Source: a virus
Virus record (IMG/VR): IMGVR_UViG_3300047443_000289
Location: 1-45,058 of that record
DNA: 45,058 nucleotides
Reading direction: 5' to 3' (one strand)
Within the stretch, counting starts at the first letter, position 1. Each line of letters starts with the position of its first letter. Made by a program: the position numbers and the translations under genes. The notes under the pieces were generated by a model. The model was not told the origin of the DNA and made no database searches. It saw only the letters and a list, made by a program, of their open reading frames with translations. Below are positions 4,222-16,530 of this stretch, in pieces.

Positions 4222-4565
4222 TACGCTTCCTTAAGTTGGAGTGGTTGAGGTGCAGTCGCTTCGCGCAGTTCGAGCGATTGCTGACGGGGATGCTTGCGGG
4301 AGAGCTCGTTGTCGTCGGTGACCCAAAAGAAGTCCTCGCCGCGCTCTGGCTTGGGCAGGTCGACCTTGACGTTGTCGACGATGACTACCTTGTCGACGTC
4401 CTTGCCGCGGGCGCCCGGCTTGACCTTTAGCTGGAGGGTCAGGCTGCCGGCCTTGCCAGTGTCCTTTACGGCAGCGAGCAGGTCGGCCTTGCCGGCCGAC
4501 AGTTCGGAGTGGGCGCGGCCGTCGCGCAGGTCCTGCAGAAACACGGCGAATGCTTGGGTACTCAT
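4221..4565 (-). CDS. Conserved hypothetical partner of the DUF2303 gene
   Basis: I choose the ATG at 4565 because an AGGAG-type Shine-Dalgarno lies just upstream. A longer reading exists to 4598. The product is 114 aa with an N-terminal helix (STQAFAVFLQDLRDGRAHSE), a strand-rich middle (SLTLQLKVKPGARG and KVVIVDNVKVDLPKPE) and EDFFWVTDDNELSRKHP at about residues 80-97. Paired small genes of this sort next to DUF2303 proteins are familiar in prophages, but no function is assigned. The stop overlaps the DUF2303 start by one base. Confidence 0.6.
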   Translation of the reverse strand: MSTQAFAVFLQDLRDGRAHSELSAGKADLLAAVKDTGKAGSLTLQLKVKPGARGKDVDKVVIVDNVKVDLPKPERGEDFFWVTDDNELSRKHPRQQSLELREATAPQPLQLKEA

Positions 4566-4632
4566 ACGAGGAATTTCTCCTTTCTGGTTGTGGTACAAAA
4601 ATGTGTTTAAATGAAACTTTTGAGGAATTTCA

Positions 4633-4950
4633 ATGTCCGCTCGACATATCTATTTCCCGTATTGCCTGGAGCGTTTGGAAGACGGGCGCTACATTGTTCT
4701 AAACCGCAACTACAAGCCGTTGGGCGATCCTCGTAGGGACTGGGTCGTTTATGAGGACCACCCAAGCGCACAGCATCTAAAAGGTCTGACTGCGGCTAAG
4801 GCCAAGGCGATGTCGTACAAAGAATCGCCAGACCTGGACAAGATTTACCTCTACAACGATGGCTGCGTGCCGACGGGAAGTGCCGAGAACTGGGCCGCAT
4901 ATTCGAAGCGCCTCCATGTGCTCGCGAAATTGCAGATCAACGACGAATAG
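4633..4950 (+). CDS. Hypothetical protein, rightward singleton in leftward operon
   Basis: This 105-aa soluble protein starts MSARHIYFPYCLERLEDGRY, with a small beta-sheet-like N-terminal half and a helical C-terminal half (WAAYSKRLHVLAKLQ). I recognise the style as a conserved phage hypothetical but know no function. A GAGGAA Shine-Dalgarno precedes the ATG. It is transcribed against the surrounding operon from the divergent gap 4566-4632, which is AT-rich and may hold its own promoter. Its end overlaps the end of the convergent P-loop gene by 14 nt. Confidence 0.55.
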   Translation: MSARHIYFPYCLERLEDGRYIVLNRNYKPLGDPRRDWVVYEDHPSAQHLKGLTAAKAKAMSYKESPDLDKIYLYNDGCVPTGSAENWAAYSKRLHVLAKLQINDE

Positions 4951-9851: not shown

Positions 9852-10014
9852 ACCAATCCAGAAAGAACCCGCCGCTGAAAGTGCGGTGGCACTGCTCGCT
9901 GATCCGCCTGCGATCCAGCGGACGGCGGAGGAAAAGGCGCGCATCCTCGCGCGCCTGACGTTGCAACTGGCCGCGCTCGAAAACGACGGGGGGCGCAGCG
10001 ATGGCGACGCTTGA
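9841..10014 (+). CDS. Small hypothetical protein before the primase (57 aa)
   Basis: The ATG at 9841 lies 11 nt inside the end of the upstream gene and the frame ends 14 nt inside the primase gene, so all three are translationally chained. The 57-aa product is helical and Ala-rich with a TAEEKARILARLTLQLAAL segment. It could be a small loader or regulator of the primase-helicase, but only the position suggests this. Confidence 0.5.
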   Translation: MTAEPIQKEPAAESAVALLADPPAIQRTAEEKARILARLTLQLAALENDGGRSDGDA

Positions 10015-12502
10015 CCAAGTCATCGACCTGAACAACATCCCCATCGAGCTCGCGCAGCGTCGCCAATGGCTGGTATGGCGGTTCGAACCGGGCGAGAAGA
10101 AGCCTCGGAAAATGCCGTATTACGCATCCGGACGCCGTCGCACGGGTAAGCAAGGAAGTGAAGAGGATCGTGCTGAGCTCGTCTCGCTGGACGTCGCTCA
10201 TGCGCGCTACCGTGATGGATATTCAGGCATCGGTTTTGCGTTCCTGCCTGGCGACGGCCTGATTGGCATCGACATCGATGCGTGTTTGGATGAGAACGGG
10301 GTAGCGACGGAGCGAACCAGGTCAATCATTGATGCCTGCGGATCTTACACAGAGTTTTCGCCGTCACGCCGCGGCCTGCATATCATCGTTGCAGGTGAAA
10401 CGCGGACATTCAAGTCGAATGACATCGGACTTGAGGTATTTTGCGGCGCCCAATTTTTTACCTTTTCAGCATCTCCTTTCCCCGGCTCCCCTTCGGAAGT
10501 AAAGCCGATCGACCAAGCCGTATTGAATCGTTTACGTGCCACAGTACAGCAAGCGAAGGGCAGTACGACACATCGCTCTTCGTCGACCGCGCCATCTCTG
10601 TCCGCTTCTGTTATAGATGAGCGCGCGAAGCTGGAATCAGCCTTGGCCCATGTCAGCGCCGATTGCGGGTATCACGACTGGATCCATATTGGCATGGCCA
10701 TCCAAGCCGCGTTAGGTGATGCTGGACTAGCCGTATGGGACTACTGGTCCCAGAAATCGAGTAAGTATGGCGGGGCGCAAGCGCTCGAATCGCACTGGAA
10801 GTCGTTCAATGGCGGACCGGGTGGGATTACGGCTGCTACAGTGTACAAGCGTGCGATCGATGCCGGCTGGCGGCCGCCGCTGCCGCCAGGAGCAAATCGC
10901 CCTGTCCCGCGTGGCGTTCCTGCCGACTTCGATAATGTGCCGTTCTGCGACGTCGATGCTACGCCGATCAGTCTTAACGGTGTGGGCTCCTCCGCACCTC
11001 CAGTGGACTGTGCGGAGCCAGTTGCGCGCAGCGAGTTCACGCTGGAATGGGCGCTCTCGCACTGCGCCCTGGTGCAGGGAACGACCGACGTGTGGGATTC
11101 GCTGAACAAGCTGCGCATGAAGCGCGCGGGCTTCCAGGACACCGTGGGCAAAGACATTGCGAAGGCCTGGCTGGAGCATGCCGACCGGCGCTCGATCAGT
11201 CCGCGCAACCTGCCACAGCTTCGGCGCGGCATCGCAGTCGACGAGGGGGCGGCGGGGGCCGACAACATCGTCATGATGCTAAACCGGTACGCGCTGCTGT
11301 ACGGAACCAAGACCGTATGGGATGAGGACAAGCGGACCGTGATCGCATACGACGCTATGTCGCTGGCACGCGGCAGCGATCTCGCAACCCGCTGGCTCGA
11401 ACATCCAATGCGCCGCGAGGTCGACCTGGACAACCTGGTCTTCGACCCGACGCAACGCGTCAACCTCGACACGCACATCAACATGTTCGAGGGCTTCCCG
11501 CTCACGCCGAAGAAAAACCAGACGATGGCGGACTTGGCCCTGTCGCTGCTGTACAGCCTGTGCAGCAGCGAGTCGAATTGCGACGAGATATTCCACTGGG
11601 CCCTGTGCTGGCTGGCGTATCCGCTACAGAACCCTGGCGCCAAGATGCAGACTGCCATGCTGTTCTTCGGTGAGAAGCAAGGCACCGGCAAGAGCCTGTT
11701 CTTCGAAGGGATCGTCAAACCGATCTACGGTGCGCACGGCGCCACCGGTGGCCAACACCAGCTGGACGCGCAGTACACGCACTGGCGGTCGCAAAAACTG
11801 TTCGTCCTGTTCGAAGAGATCCTGTCCCGTCAGGACAAATACAGTCACTTCGGCCTGATCAAGCACATGATCACCGGCCGGGACCAGATGGTGACACAGA
11901 AGTTCAAGGACGACCGCACCGAGGCGAACCACATGAACGTGGTGATGCTATCCAACGAGTTCCAGGCGGTCCCAATCGAGCCAGACGACCGGCGCTTCCT
12001 CGTGGTCGAGGCACGTAGTCCCCTCGACCCCCAGCTCTTGAAGGAGATCCAGGCCGCCCTTGCCGATGGCCTGAGCGAGGCGTTCTATGCGTTCCTGCTC
12101 GAATACCCGCTCGATGGCTTCACCCCGCACACCAAGCCGCTGATGACGGTGTCGAAGGAACGGATGATCAACTTCGGCCGTCCTGACTGGGACCTTTTCT
12201 ACCTGGCCTGGCAGGCCGGCGAGCTATCCGCGCCTTACTGCTCGTGCCTGTCGACGGACCTCTACACGGTGTACGCCCGCTACTGCAACAAGTATGGTTA
12301 CCGGCAGATGACGATGACCAAGTTCGCCGAGCTGATCGCCCAGCGAGTCCGCAAGGACCGCCAATGGGTCGCCTTGGGCGCGACTGGACAGAAGAAGCTG
12401 CTGACCGTGTTCCATGTGCCATGGACTGATGAGAAAGAGCCTGAGCTCTCCCTCAGCAAACAGTGCGAACGCTTCCGTGACCTGGCCGACATCAAGGAGT
12501 GA
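10001..12502 (+). CDS. Primase-helicase: primase-polymerase, PriCT-2 and DUF5906 SF3 helicase
   Basis: This 833-aa replication protein has three parts. Residues about 10-180 are an AEP-type primase-polymerase half with QRRQWLVWRF, GIDIDAC (metal-binding Asp, residues 88-94) and TEFSPSRRGLHI. Residues about 210-290 are a PriCT-2 domain (YHDWIHIGMAIQAAL and the WKSFN region). Residues about 510-790 are an SF3/DUF5906 helicase with Walker A GEKQGTGKS (557-565), Walker B FVLFEEI (about 600) and VVMLSNE as sensor (about 645). Such fusions start and unwind phage replication in one polypeptide. No separate loader or SSB is seen. The length fits the family. Confidence 0.9.
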   Translation: MATLDQVIDLNNIPIELAQRRQWLVWRFEPGEKKPRKMPYYASGRRRTGKQGSEEDRAELVSLDVAHARYRDGYSGIGFAFLPGDGLIGIDIDACLDENGVATERTRSIIDACGSYTEFSPSRRGLHIIVAGETRTFKSNDIGLEVFCGAQFFTFSASPFPGSPSEVKPIDQAVLNRLRATVQQAKGSTTHRSSSTAPSLSASVIDERAKLESALAHVSADCGYHDWIHIGMAIQAALGDAGLAVWDYWSQKSSKYGGAQALESHWKSFNGGPGGITAATVYKRAIDAGWRPPLPPGANRPVPRGVPADFDNVPFCDVDATPISLNGVGSSAPPVDCAEPVARSEFTLEWALSHCALVQGTTDVWDSLNKLRMKRAGFQDTVGKDIAKAWLEHADRRSISPRNLPQLRRGIAVDEGAAGADNIVMMLNRYALLYGTKTVWDEDKRTVIAYDAMSLARGSDLATRWLEHPMRREVDLDNLVFDPTQRVNLDTHINMFEGFPLTPKKNQTMADLALSLLYSLCSSESNCDEIFHWALCWLAYPLQNPGAKMQTAMLFFGEKQGTGKSLFFEGIVKPIYGAHGATGGQHQLDAQYTHWRSQKLFVLFEEILSRQDKYSHFGLIKHMITGRDQMVTQKFKDDRTEANHMNVVMLSNEFQAVPIEPDDRRFLVVEARSPLDPQLLKEIQAALADGLSEAFYAFLLEYPLDGFTPHTKPLMTVSKERMINFGRPDWDLFYLAWQAGELSAPYCSCLSTDLYTVYARYCNKYGYRQMTMTKFAELIAQRVRKDRQWVALGATGQKKLLTVFHVPWTDEKEPELSLSKQCERFRDLADIKE

Positions 12503-12505
12503 GAC

Positions 12506-12787
12506 ATGCACGTCCGTCAATTAACAGGGTTGATCATGGTTGCAGAGAAGTGCGTAAGCCGGAAAGCCAGTATCCATGCGGGTTCTACAGGGTTAACAGG
12601 GTTAACAGGGGTCGCAGGCGCGCACGTGGGTAAGTCGATCAAACCAAACCCACCCAATAAAAATCTTCCCATGTGCGCGATGAAAACAATGTTAACCCTG
12701 TTAACCCTGATCAAAGCCAGTATCCATGCGGTTTTCGACGTAACAGGGTTCGATGTCAACACCGTTATGCCACGTAAAGGGGCCTGA
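12506..12787 (+). CDS. Possible small protein covering the repeat stretch (93 aa)
   Basis: A frame opens 3 nt after the primase stop, with AAGGAG 6 nt before the ATG, and closes 2 nt before the next ATG. This spacing looks like a true operon gene. However, the sequence is unlike a folded protein: it reads TGLTGLTG and KASIHA twice because it runs over DNA repeats. It may be a real but fast-evolving peptide, or an artefact of a noncoding origin or regulatory region. Confidence 0.4.
   Translation: MHVRQLTGLIMVAEKCVSRKASIHAGSTGLTGLTGVAGAHVGKSIKPNPPNKNLPMCAMKTMLTLLTLIKASIHAVFDVTGFDVNTVMPRKGA
12563..12731 (+). repeat. 19-bp direct repeat pair
   Basis: The 19-mer beginning AAAGCCAGTATCC and ending ATGCGG occurs exactly at 12563-12581 and at 12713-12731, 150 bp apart. 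It brackets the inverted repeat at 12588-12709. Confidence 0.85.
12588..12709. repeat. 20-bp perfect inverted repeat built of GTTAAC/CAGGG iterons
   Basis: CAGGGTTAACAGGGTTAACA at 12588-12607 is the exact reverse complement of 12690-12709, with 82 bp between. Each arm is itself two tandem CAGGGTTAA units. Further copies of TAACAGGGTT occur at 12522-12531 and 12741-12750. The array sits directly after the primase-helicase gene, a common place for an iteron-type origin. It could instead be a regulatory RNA hairpin. No T tract follows, so it is not a typical terminator. Confidence 0.75.
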
Positions 12788-12789
12788 TC

Positions 12790-13545
12790 ATGCGGATCAA
12801 CGTCCAGACCAACTTCGCCGAAATTGCCCAGCGGCTGTCCGAGATGGGCCGCCAAGCGCCGTACGTTGCAGCCTTGTCGCTGACGCGAACGGCGCAGGAC
12901 GTCCAAGCCGCGATCAAGACCGAGATGCGGAGCGTGTTCGATCGGCCGACCACGTACGCACTGAACGGTACGTTCCTTAAGCGTGCCACAAAGCAGAACC
13001 TGGAGGCTCGCGTATGGGTCAAGGACAATCCGTTTGGCAAGGGCACGCCGGCCGATCGTTTCCTACTGCCACAGATCTACGGCGGCTCGCGCGGACTGAA
13101 GGGTATGGAGCGCGTCCTACAGCGCAACGGCATGATGCCGTCGGGCCAGTTCGCTGTCCCGGCCGCTGGTGCGCAGCTCGATGCCAATGGCAACGTCAAG
13201 CGCAGCCAGATCATCCAGATACTGTCCCAGCTGCGCGTGCAGAGTGGCGCCGGCTACGAGTCTCGCGCTACCGGGAGTGCACGTTCGAACCGCACCGTCG
13301 CACGCCAGGGCGTGACGTACTTCGCGCTGCCGAAGGCGCGCCGTGGGCTGAAGCCGGGTATCTACCTTAAGCGCAAGTTCGGTCACGGCGTGGCGATCAA
13401 GCCCGTGTTCATCTTTGTGCCGGCAGTGCAGTACAAGCCTCGCTTGCGCTTCTTCGAAGTGGGCAAGGTCGTGGCCGATGCGCAGTTCCCGCGCCACTTC
13501 GATGCCGCGTGGGCGAAGGCCGTGGCGACGGCAAGGCTGGGCTGA
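12790..13545 (+). CDS. gpZ-like minor tail/tail-completion-type protein
   Basis: The 251-aa basic protein begins with a helix (NFAEIAQRLSEMGRQAPYVA) followed by ALSLTRTAQDVQAAI, VFDRPTTYALNGTFLKRAT and NLEARVWVKD (residues about 30-80), then QIYGGSRGLKG. This N-terminal order recalls the prophage minor tail protein Z family, but it is longer than lambda gpZ (about 190 aa) and lies before the terminase genes, not among tail genes. An AAAGGGG Shine-Dalgarno precedes the ATG. The structural role is inferred and the homology is tentative. Confidence 0.5.
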   Translation: MRINVQTNFAEIAQRLSEMGRQAPYVAALSLTRTAQDVQAAIKTEMRSVFDRPTTYALNGTFLKRATKQNLEARVWVKDNPFGKGTPADRFLLPQIYGGSRGLKGMERVLQRNGMMPSGQFAVPAAGAQLDANGNVKRSQIIQILSQLRVQSGAGYESRATGSARSNRTVARQGVTYFALPKARRGLKPGIYLKRKFGHGVAIKPVFIFVPAVQYKPRLRFFEVGKVVADAQFPRHFDAAWAKAVATARLG

Positions 13546-13936: not shown

Positions 13937-14551
13937 GTGCCCAAACCATTTCCTGACAACTTACCTGACAACGTACCGAAACACATGCCGAACCTGACAA
14001 CCATTGCCGAGTGGGCCAAGCTGGTGGGGATCTCCCGCCAGTCCGCGTATGACGCGGTGACCCGTTGTGAAATTCCGGTGGCGGACGGGAAGGTCGACGC
14101 CGAATACGCGACGCACCTGTACGAGAAAAATACCCGCAAGCGTGCGAACGGCACGCGGCCTGCCTCCTTGGCTATGGCGGCGCAGCCCGTGGGGCTGGCG
14201 GGTGCGGGAGGGGCGGGAGGTAAGGAACCCTCGCAGAAGGTTCCGGGGTACGACAGCAGTCGTGCGCGCAGGGAAGCGGCCGAGGCGGAGATTGCCGAAC
14301 TGAAGCTGGCCGAGCAGGCAGGCAAGTTCCTTCTCAAGAGCGATGTCGAGGCGACGGCATTCGAGATCGCGCGAGCGCTCCGCGACGGTCTGAACAACAG
14401 CGCGCGGCGCATCGCTGCCGAAGTCGCATCGCTGACCACGACCGAAGCTTGCGAGGAGATCATCGACCGGGAGATCACTGCGCTGCTCGGCAGCATGTCC
14501 CAGTCGCTGCGCGCAGACCTAGACGTCGATGTTAGCGAGGCCGTGCAATGA
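13937..14551 (+). CDS. Terminase small subunit (Nu1-like)
   Basis: The protein is 204 aa from GTG 13937; an ATG at 13985 would give 188 aa, and neither has a clear Shine-Dalgarno. A winged-helix DNA-recognition domain lies near the N-terminus (TTIAEWAKLVGISRQSAYDAV, about residues 21-40), followed by a Gly/Ala linker and a helical C-terminal half (REAAEAEIAELKLAEQAGKF) of the type that contacts the large subunit. It recognises cos and starts packaging. The stop overlaps the large-subunit start by 4 nt (ATGA). Confidence 0.82.
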   Translation: MPKPFPDNLPDNVPKHMPNLTTIAEWAKLVGISRQSAYDAVTRCEIPVADGKVDAEYATHLYEKNTRKRANGTRPASLAMAAQPVGLAGAGGAGGKEPSQKVPGYDSSRARREAAEAEIAELKLAEQAGKFLLKSDVEATAFEIARALRDGLNNSARRIAAEVASLTTTEACEEIIDREITALLGSMSQSLRADLDVDVSEAVQ

Positions 14552-16530
14552 GGACCGCACTGGCCGGCCCAGTCGTGCGCGCCGCTGTCGGGCGTGGCCT
14601 TGAGCCGGATCCCAACCTGCCCGTCGATCAGTGGGCCGACGAGTACATGGTCATCCCGAAGAGTGGCGGCGCGAGCGAGTACGGCAAGTACCGGTCGAGC
14701 CGAACGCCACACGCCAGGACCGTGATGCGCGCACTGTCGCCGAGCCACCCGTGCAAGCGCGTCGTGGTGATGGGCGCATCGCAAATGCTCAAGACGCAGG
14801 TCGCCCTGAACTTCTTCGGCGCTTGCGTCCATCAGGCACCGTCGAACTTCCTCTGGATTCTTCCGACCGGGAAGCTGGCCAAGCGTGCGAGCAAGCGTAT
14901 CGACAAGACGATCGACGCCGTGCCCGTGCTGCGCGAGCGAGTCGCCCAGCCGCGGTCCCGCGATGCCGTCAACACGATGGACACAAAGGAGTACGTCGGC
15001 GGTTCACTGACCATTGTCACCTCGGGCGCGGCCGCCAACCTTTCCGAGCTGTCGTGCCGCTACCTGGTGTATGACGAAGTGGACAGGGCAGATGCCAACG
15101 TAGACGGAGAGGGTGACACGACGGCGTTGGCCGAAGCGCGCCAGACTACCTACGAGCGCAACAAGAAATCCTACTACCCGAGCTCGCCGACGATCAAGGA
15201 ATCATCAACGATCGAAGCGCTCTACCTGAAGGGGACGCAGCGTGAGGCCCTGGCCGACTGCGTGCATTGCGGTCACGCGCAGACGCTGGTGTTCGAGCGT
15301 CTGGAGCAGGGACCCGACGGTCGCGCGCGCTACGCGTGCATCGACTGCGGTGCCTTCATGTATGAGACCGACAAGACGCGGATGTTCGAACGGGGCGGAT
15401 GGACCGAAGGCGTTGCCGGCGATGGCGAAACGGAGAGCTTCACCATCAGCGGCATGTTTCTGCCCTATGGCTGGTTCTCCTGGCTGGGCCTGCTCAAGGA
15501 ATACCGCGCGGCCAAGGTGAAGCTGGACGAGGGCAGCGACGAGCTGATGATCACGTTCTACAACACGCGCCTGGCGCGCAGCTGGGAACGGAAGAAAGAG
15601 CAGACGAAAGCCAAGGAACTCCAGGACCGCGCCGAGCCATACAAACTGGGCACGGTGCCGAAGGGTGGCCTGATTCTGGTCGCCACGGTCGACACCCAGC
15701 CAGACCGCTTCGAAATGAAAGTCGTCGCCTGGGGCGAGGGGATGGAGGGCTGGCTCGTCGATTACCAGATCGTCTCAGGGTCGCCGTCCGAGCAGGCCAC
15801 GCAGGACAAGCTCGACCAGCTGCTGCTGGGCCGGTATCGCCACGTCGGCGGCCGTATGCTCCCGATCGCCGCCACCTTCATCGACTCGGGTGGCGCGAAC
15901 ACCCAGGATGTCTACAACTTCTGCCGCACTCGCCAGCATCGCCACGTCTACGCGATCAAGGGTCACTCGGTAGCGAACAAGCCGATCATCGGCGCCAAGC
16001 CATCTCTGCAGGACGTCAACTGGAATGGACAGGTGATCCCGCAAGGCGTGCAGCTGTGGATGATCGGTACCGACACCGCCAAGGACTACTTGTCCGCACG
16101 CTGGAAGTTTGTCGCCGGCCCTGGTGCGATCCACTTCTCGCAGGATCTGCCGAAAGAGTATTACGAACAGCTGACCGCCGAGTATTGCATCACGGTCTGG
16201 CGGCGCGGTCACAAGGTGCGCGTGTGGGAAAAGAAGAAAAACGACCGCAATGAGGCCGGCGACCTGATGGTATATGCCGTGGCCTGTGCCTACTACCTGG
16301 GCCTGCACAAAAAGACGGCCGGGCAATGGCAGCAGGTACGCGAGTACGTCGATCCTGAAACGCGCGACCTCTTCCTGGATCCGCCAGCAGCCGCGGCGGC
16401 TGATATCGCCGCTACCGCTCAGGCGCAACCATCGACCGTAGAAACCATAGCCCGAACCGAATCATGGACGACATCGAAATCGCAACCCCAGTCATCGCCG
16501 CCACGTCGTCCAACCGGGAGAGCGTGGTGA
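14548..16530 (+). CDS. Terminase large subunit, lambda GpA family
   Basis: This 660-aa packaging motor and nuclease has an N-terminal ATPase with a deviant Walker A (GASQMLKT, residues 76-83), Walker B YLVYDEVD (about 172-179) and a Cys pair set CVHC...CIDC (about 238-266). The C-terminal nuclease half opens with VATVDTQPDRFEMKVVAW (about 375) and has TFIDSGG (about 445) and NEAGDLMVYAVACAYY near 575. All are typical of GpA. It makes cos ends and translocates DNA into proheads. The C-terminal 40 residues are a variable tail overlapping the next gene. Confidence 0.95.
   Translation: MRTALAGPVVRAAVGRGLEPDPNLPVDQWADEYMVIPKSGGASEYGKYRSSRTPHARTVMRALSPSHPCKRVVVMGASQMLKTQVALNFFGACVHQAPSNFLWILPTGKLAKRASKRIDKTIDAVPVLRERVAQPRSRDAVNTMDTKEYVGGSLTIVTSGAAANLSELSCRYLVYDEVDRADANVDGEGDTTALAEARQTTYERNKKSYYPSSPTIKESSTIEALYLKGTQREALADCVHCGHAQTLVFERLEQGPDGRARYACIDCGAFMYETDKTRMFERGGWTEGVAGDGETESFTISGMFLPYGWFSWLGLLKEYRAAKVKLDEGSDELMITFYNTRLARSWERKKEQTKAKELQDRAEPYKLGTVPKGGLILVATVDTQPDRFEMKVVAWGEGMEGWLVDYQIVSGSPSEQATQDKLDQLLLGRYRHVGGRMLPIAATFIDSGGANTQDVYNFCRTRQHRHVYAIKGHSVANKPIIGAKPSLQDVNWNGQVIPQGVQLWMIGTDTAKDYLSARWKFVAGPGAIHFSQDLPKEYYEQLTAEYCITVWRRGHKVRVWEKKKNDRNEAGDLMVYAVACAYYLGLHKKTAGQWQQVREYVDPETRDLFLDPPAAAAADIAATAQAQPSTVETIARTESWTTSKSQPQSSPPRRPTGRAW

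Follow-up and report, generated by a model that had tools for sequence, protein, structure and literature searches.

What does the cluster of short repeats directly after the primase-helicase gene of a temperate phage represent: a small gene for a repetitive peptide, or a DNA element in the control of replication? We addressed this question at positions 12,506-12,787 of IMGVR_UViG_3300047443_000289, a sequence of 45,058 nt that was analysed whole and is hereafter termed the window. The initial annotation, made from the sequence alone, had proposed an origin or a replication-control element with an apparent gene superimposed on it. Conservation at the DNA level, position after the primase-helicase gene and the presence of the same motif at plasmid origins all lend support to that proposal, and we regard the array as the probable origin of replication of this temperate phage, or else as a region that acts in cis in its replication (probability roughly 0.8). 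Its 19-bp direct repeat is a motif common far beyond the window phage, a point that the initial annotation had missed.

Both principal repeats described earlier are present: a perfect 20-bp inverted repeat (CAGGGTTAACAGGGTTAACA/TGTTAACCCTGTTAACCCTG) and a direct repeat, AAAGCCAGTATCCATGCGG, whose copies at 12563 and 12713 agree exactly over 19 bp and at 21 of 22 bp, with a spacing of 150. Their nesting also stands, although its wording needed correction, as the inverted repeat lies between the direct-repeat copies at 12563-12584 and 12713-12734. None of 2,000 first-order Markov shuffles attained the length of either repeat, and in the rest of the window the longest inverted repeat measures 12 and the longest direct repeat 14. 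Nine-mers of the AACAGGGTT type (0-1 mismatch) start at 12523, 12586, 12595, 12604 and 12742 on the plus strand and at 12694 and 12703 on the minus strand, the outermost two being the flanking copies already noted; the 230-bp array (12523-12750) holds seven of the ten such 9-mers of the whole 45 kb. We also recovered two sets of arms absent from the initial annotation: AACCCTGTTA (12694-12703) and TAACAGGGTT (12741-12750) enclose the second direct-repeat copy, while 12619-12630 and 12668-12679 form an inner inverted repeat whose stem is retained in relatives with G-C/G-U changes. The array follows the replication gene directly, as had been stated, starting 20 bp past the primase-helicase stop codon, and thus shares with iteron-type origins both their several short repeats, in direct and inverted copies, and their adjacency to an initiator gene.

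Comparison of related phages, the check proposed at the outset, came out in favor of an origin. Ten IMG/VR relatives were aligned, all of which have the end of the primase gene, the array and the gene after it in common with the window. All ten retain both long direct-repeat copies, the iterons and the inner GCGCAC/GTGCGC inverted repeat, with linkers that vary and carry indels. The distance between the direct-repeat copies takes three values (150, 159 and 148 bp), and the 148-bp spacing, found in four of the ten (L030, L041, L050 and L081), shifts the reading frame between them, so that the two copies cannot share one frame there. The superimposed open reading frame (ORF) does exist; it has no Pfam family and is open in 11 of 11 sequences, so it could still be translated. 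Substitutions in its KASIHAG frame, however, number 594/754/714 by codon position with 12% of codon differences synonymous, compared with 226/167/360 and 41% in the upstream primase; across these 11 sequences the ORF shows no third-position excess and no sign of purifying selection on its codons. Selection at the array acts on DNA, not on a peptide: relatives keep the DNA repeats, the ORF lacks a codon signal and the copy spacing breaks the frame, and we therefore treat the array as a DNA element. No close relatives were found among annotated phages, and the 4,227 families of Rfam 15 covariance models gave no meaningful match to the region.

We take the array as the phage origin because its position and style match those of P4 crr and of the pri-rep-ori of Gram-negative phage-inducible chromosomal islands (PICIs). 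P4 crr/ori1 likewise lies directly downstream of a primase-helicase gene (crr at 4291-4590, end of alpha at 4636) and contains short iterons in direct and inverted copies, TGTTCACC/GGTGAACA, compared with GGTTAACAG in the window. Although GGTTAACAG is one base apart from the P4 type I iteron GGTGAACA, protein similarity is weak, with the helicase parts of the window primase and P4 alpha matching at E 0.2; unlike the window, P4 has two separate cis regions and no copy of the shared motif. According to the accessible text of PMC6092414, PICI pri-rep-ori has an AT-rich region beside pri-rep with a set of iterons on either side, and that of EcCICFT073 was shown experimentally to be a functional replicon; the same text does not mention the shared motif. 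The likeness of PICI pri-rep-ori to the window is one of iteron layout and gene position. Taken alone, the array would be an additional P4/PICI-type iteron origin.

The direct repeat, read as "KASIHA" in the ORF, belongs to a widespread motif with the consensus GCTGAAAS-CC-AGYAWCCATGC-GG-STTTCAGC, derived from copies not picked by an exact 16-mer. This consensus is a self-complementary stem around a conserved 11-nt loop, and as single-stranded DNA it shows a much stronger fold than shuffled sequences (z -4.4). An exact search for the 16-mer GCCAGTATCCATGCGG hit 94 IMG/VR stretches, mostly inside a longer match and in unrelated surroundings, and approximate matching across viral and plasmid loci yielded 159 matches versus 16 for the reversed pattern. 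The better GenBank phage matches lie mostly in unannotated intergenic DNA, as do the plasmid matches; matches inside secD and moaA-like genes, identified by eye from their contexts, were set aside as chance codon matches. By position weight matrix (PWM), motif copy 1 is the best site in the window, and 20 mononucleotide shuffles of the window reached a maximum of 18.5. Complementary arms of lineage-specific sequence often flank the motif: complementarity of at least 8 bp across it was found in 20 of 106 deduplicated loci, whereas about 2 were expected from swapping left and right flanks between loci. Stem positions -2, -3, -4, -8 and -9 co-vary (z 2.4-5.0), a modest effect. Rfam and the searchable open papers contain no account of the motif, which together with its pair spacing is, as far as they show, undescribed.

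In phages, paired cores lie ~130-200 bp apart. When IMG/VR was searched for two 11-nt cores separated by defined gaps, divergent pairs turned up in 50 contigs (29 at a gap of 138-168 and 21 at 169-199), direct pairs in 27 (gap 130-160) and convergent pairs in 10, whereas a control gap of 300-330 yielded no paired-core contig; removal of near-duplicates left 36 loci. Across 22 deduplicated divergent loci, A+T content between the copies is 0.585, versus 0.48 in the flanks and 0.435 for the locus; pair interiors are thus AT-rich as a class, whereas the A+T-richer stretch of the window array is short only. The iterons outside the pairs differ per lineage (GTTGGACGG, CCCTGCA, GTGTCC, TCCTACATT and others). 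At least four copies of an 8-mer fall within 360 bp at 24 of 175 motif sites versus 12 of 865 control windows, and at least five at 11 motif sites versus none of the controls. Both in the paired phage loci, as predicted origins, and in F, the motif stands at the AT-rich edge with iterons to its 3' side. Among 65 neighboring proteins, DUF5906 is present in 11, VapE in 6 and RepB_primase in 2, with DUF927 replicases also among the large neighbors of paired motifs; in several paired-motif lineages the nearby genes are all of unknown function. A group of terminase_6-type phages (L004, L009, L027, L064, L341, L343 and L349) carries divergent motifs around a TATATA-rich core, forming predicted origins that adjoin genes without a Pfam or PHROG replication-family match, and the initiators of these phages may be of an unknown type.

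Plasmid copies of the motif lie upstream of rep, on the strand of rep, at distances from 37 bp to ~0.85 kb (Table 1). In F oriS (ori2)/IncFIA, the variant CCTTTATCCATGCTGGTT is flanked by the AT-rich repeats on one side and by the first RepE iteron on the other, a junction comparable to the edges of the candidate unwinding region in the window; F has one motif copy, no stem and an initiator, RepE, without a primase, whereas the window has two copies and a primase. A primosome assembly site near mini-F ori2 was reportedly described by Imber, Low and Ray in 1983. The accessible portions of the F origin papers name DnaA boxes, AT-rich repeats and iterons as parts of oriS and do not mention the motif element. 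In two further plasmids the motif stands beside mobI; exceptions are one match beside IS66 genes and another beside unrelated genes. Near mobI, Pseudomonas aeruginosa pPae-WC20-001-02 (L311:2765-3166) carries four tandem motif copies with a 128-bp period and CTTAGAACGGG arms, a possible oriV or oriT-proximal initiation site.

We propose a scheme in which the upstream-encoded primase-helicase, a presumed origin-binding replicase, would bind the lineage-specific 9-bp iterons, GGTTAACAG in the window, in the way that alpha of P4 does with GGTGAACA in crr/ori. The DNA between the two iteron sets would then melt, with one shared motif at each edge of the melted stretch, able to form a hairpin with its 11-nt loop and often lengthened by iteron arms. 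In its single-stranded state, the motif would act as a single-strand initiation (ssi) site for the first primer or for helicase/primosome loading, with two motifs giving two forks and one motif giving one. Iteron binding by the phage primase is a step that we infer, and we put the chances of a single-strand initiation role a little short of even. The consensus folds and its arms co-vary, but the F copy is unfolded and window copy 1 is without simple arms. A host factor is the more likely reader of the motif than the phage primase because F and p47S carry it without an AEP primase. With somewhat less confidence still, we suggest that in unrelated proteobacterial phages, satellites, and rolling-circle and theta plasmids including F, the motif, at the border of the unwinding region of their origins, may be recognized by a conserved host replication factor as a general signal for priming or for loading the replisome; how many motifs there are, and which way they point, would set fork direction.

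Known priming sites offer partial parallels. The ssiA and ssiB sites of RSF1010 are hairpins of ~40 nt, one per strand, primed by the AEP primase RepB' at an iteron origin (PMC4434180). The AT-rich edge at which the shared motif stands is a place where a comparable strand-specific site, for the first primer or for the helicase, would be of use. RepB' and the window primase are both AEP-type; in contrast to RSF1010, both window copies are on one strand, and the shared motif is found also where the replicon lacks an AEP primase gene. The NrS-1 primase-polymerase, related to the window primase by a PDB-chain match, starts synthesis at the template motif 5'-TTTGGTTA-3' or GTG (PMC8718748). As a priming site, the word TTTGGTTA was rejected, being absent from the window array region. 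An E. coli-type DnaG start (CTG) was considered as well: the corresponding CAG is common in the motif, and the G4 primer likewise begins AGUA, but many copies, that of F among them, have lost CAG, and we do not rely on it. Strand assignment from G-T wobble was too weak to be used.

Several observations weigh against the origin reading and its extension to the motif at large. A PWM scan found no shared-motif copy in P4, phiX174 or G4, the phiX174 primosome assembly site and the G4 complementary-strand origin scoring at best 8.2 and 6.5 versus 25.7-31.3 in the window, so that the motif is dispensable for such origins in general. In most lineages the copies are divergent, as in L038 and L062, which share the synteny of the window lineage, whereas those of the window are direct. 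Many single copies sit in phage contigs without a recognizable replication neighbor, the F copy has diverged and fails to fold, and the GC skew of the window is uninformative, with no clear switch at 12.6 kb. Dispersed chromosomal copies are unaccounted for by an origin role: 182 lie in a ~75-bp dispersed element of a Pseudomonadota metagenome-assembled genome (MAG) (USDV_maxbin.015; G003, e.g. L210-L229), about 23 in a Rhodocyclaceae MAG, and 10 listed copies of a ~115-bp element resembling a miniature inverted-repeat transposable element (MITE) in G233 (L297-L302) contain the motif GAAAACCAATATCCATGCGGGTTTCAAG; G008 has a dispersed family too. The motif is neither universal nor confined to origins.

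The motif could instead be bound as duplex DNA by a conserved protein of the host, for example one of the nucleoid or a loader, with the effect of bending or opening origins; the flips of orientation between close lineages of one synteny and within one dispersed family, together with the unfolded F copy, speak for it, whereas selected complementary arms of differing sequence, co-varying stem positions and the single-stranded fold of the consensus do not, and we consider it somewhat unlikely. Improbable, in our assessment, is a mobile palindrome of the repetitive extragenic palindrome (REP) or MITE kind, located at origins through a preference for intergenic insertion. The dispersed families of G003, G008 and G233 would suit it, but the surroundings of the lineages are wholly different, pair spacing is fixed, the strand is constant relative to plasmid rep, and relatives keep the motif in place. 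Moreover, among 20 Y1 transposase loci scanned in 12 genomes (phage lay outside this search), only G003 has a clear nearby motif copy and G205 a diverged one (4 mismatches), so that a REP-associated tyrosine transposase (RAYT) was rejected as a general explanation.

The array lies between early replication and late genes, with S24 repressor, helix-turn-helix (HTH) and Phage_CP76 genes (Pfam) nearby, and its iterons might accordingly be operators of a CI, Cro-like or CII-like CP76 regulator of late genes, or the array a transcript hairpin or attenuator. The absence of an Rfam family and the like architecture after rep genes in plasmids and in phages of other gene order make this quite improbable. 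To a translated small gene, with the repeats a by-product of its repetitive peptide, we give hardly any credence: its start codon near the primase stop and its retained frame are outweighed by the codon pattern and spacing described above, by repeats that are inverted as DNA, and by the occurrence of the motif elsewhere in all frames and intergenically.

Because iterons vary by replicon, phage and plasmid origins have usually been identified singly. If true, a motif common to many origins, including the well-studied F oriS, would provide a sequence handle for the origins of metagenomic phages and plasmids, and would draw attention to an early step that these origins have in common, perhaps synthesis of the first primer or loading of the helicase, which current iteron-origin models leave unnamed.

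Table 1. Features of the window around the candidate origin, and motif positions at plasmid origins.
Feature	Position	Strand	Basis or remark
Primase-helicase gene: AEP primase-polymerase, PriCT-2, SF3/VapE-DUF5906 helicase	10001..12502	+	Pfam, PDB relatives
Overlapping ORF, 93 aa, TGLTGLTG and KASIHA x2	12506..12787	+	Open frame, without sign of protein-level selection
Iteron copy AACAGGGTT	12523..12531	+	9-mer scan
Shared origin motif copy 1 (putative), AAAGCCAGTATCCATGCGGGTTCT	12563..12586, core 12567-12584	+	Repeat search, PWM 31.3
Three tandem 9-bp iterons TACAGGGTT AACAGGGTT AACAGGGGT	12586..12612	+	Kept in 10 relatives
20-bp inverted repeat, left arm	12588-12607		Overlaps tandem iterons 12586..12612
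Central segment, candidate unwinding region	12619..12679	no strand	Inner inverted repeat GCGCAC-GTG around A+T-richer stretch
Two inverted iterons	12690..12711	-	Contain right arm of 20-bp inverted repeat, 12690-12709
Shared origin motif copy 2 (putative), AAAGCCAGTATCCATGCGGTTTTC	12713..12736, core 12717-12734	+	PWM 25.7
Iteron copy AACAGGGTT, 3' arm of motif-2 hairpin	12742..12750	+	9-mer scan
Motif in p47S (1.8 kb, Rep_trans)	37 bp upstream of rep	rep strand	
Motif in pHB2a, pHB2b (Rep_3)	~120 bp upstream of rep	rep strand	
Motif in IncFIA plasmids of Klebsiella	200 bp upstream of repE	rep strand	
Motif in two Pseudomonas plasmids	~350 bp upstream of rep	rep strand	
Motif in Conchiformibius pDSM2580_2	526 bp upstream of rep	rep strand	
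Motif in two Massilia plasmids	~0.8 kb upstream of rep	rep strand	
Motif in F oriS (mini-F), CCATGCTGG	Between AT-rich repeats and iterons		

The primase-helicase matches PriCT_2 (8.8e-19), DUF5906 (1.4e-17) and VapE-like (7.6e-8) in Pfam, and its PDB relatives are 7rr3/6a9w (primase, 1e-16), 7ola (1e-11) and 6k9e (1e-10); the AEP primase-polymerase likeness to 7rr3, 6a9w and 7ola is N-terminal, and 6a9w is the phage NrS-1 enzyme. The gene after the array begins at 12790, and a gpA-type terminase occupies 14548-16530.

Among the dispersed chromosomal families, the G003 element has the form ACATCATTT..CCTCTG-CAAGCCAGTATCCATGCGGCTT-CAGAGG..CTCTCGGG, in which the loop points either way with respect to the outer parts, and the G233 element brackets the motif with terminal inverted repeats CTAGTGTAGTG/CACTACACTAG. 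At L274:1500-1920 in G003, the only clear case in the 20 Y1 loci, a Y1 (RAYT-like) transposase gene lies ~90 bp from a motif copy. A chromosomal oriC was considered for the Burkholderiales loci L191, L254 and L259, which lie near DnaA-box-like words, and was dropped, as no recognizable dnaA or rpmH was found around them; their motif-like CCAGTATYGATGCGG repeats beside TGTGGATAA-like words look like a different dispersed repeat.
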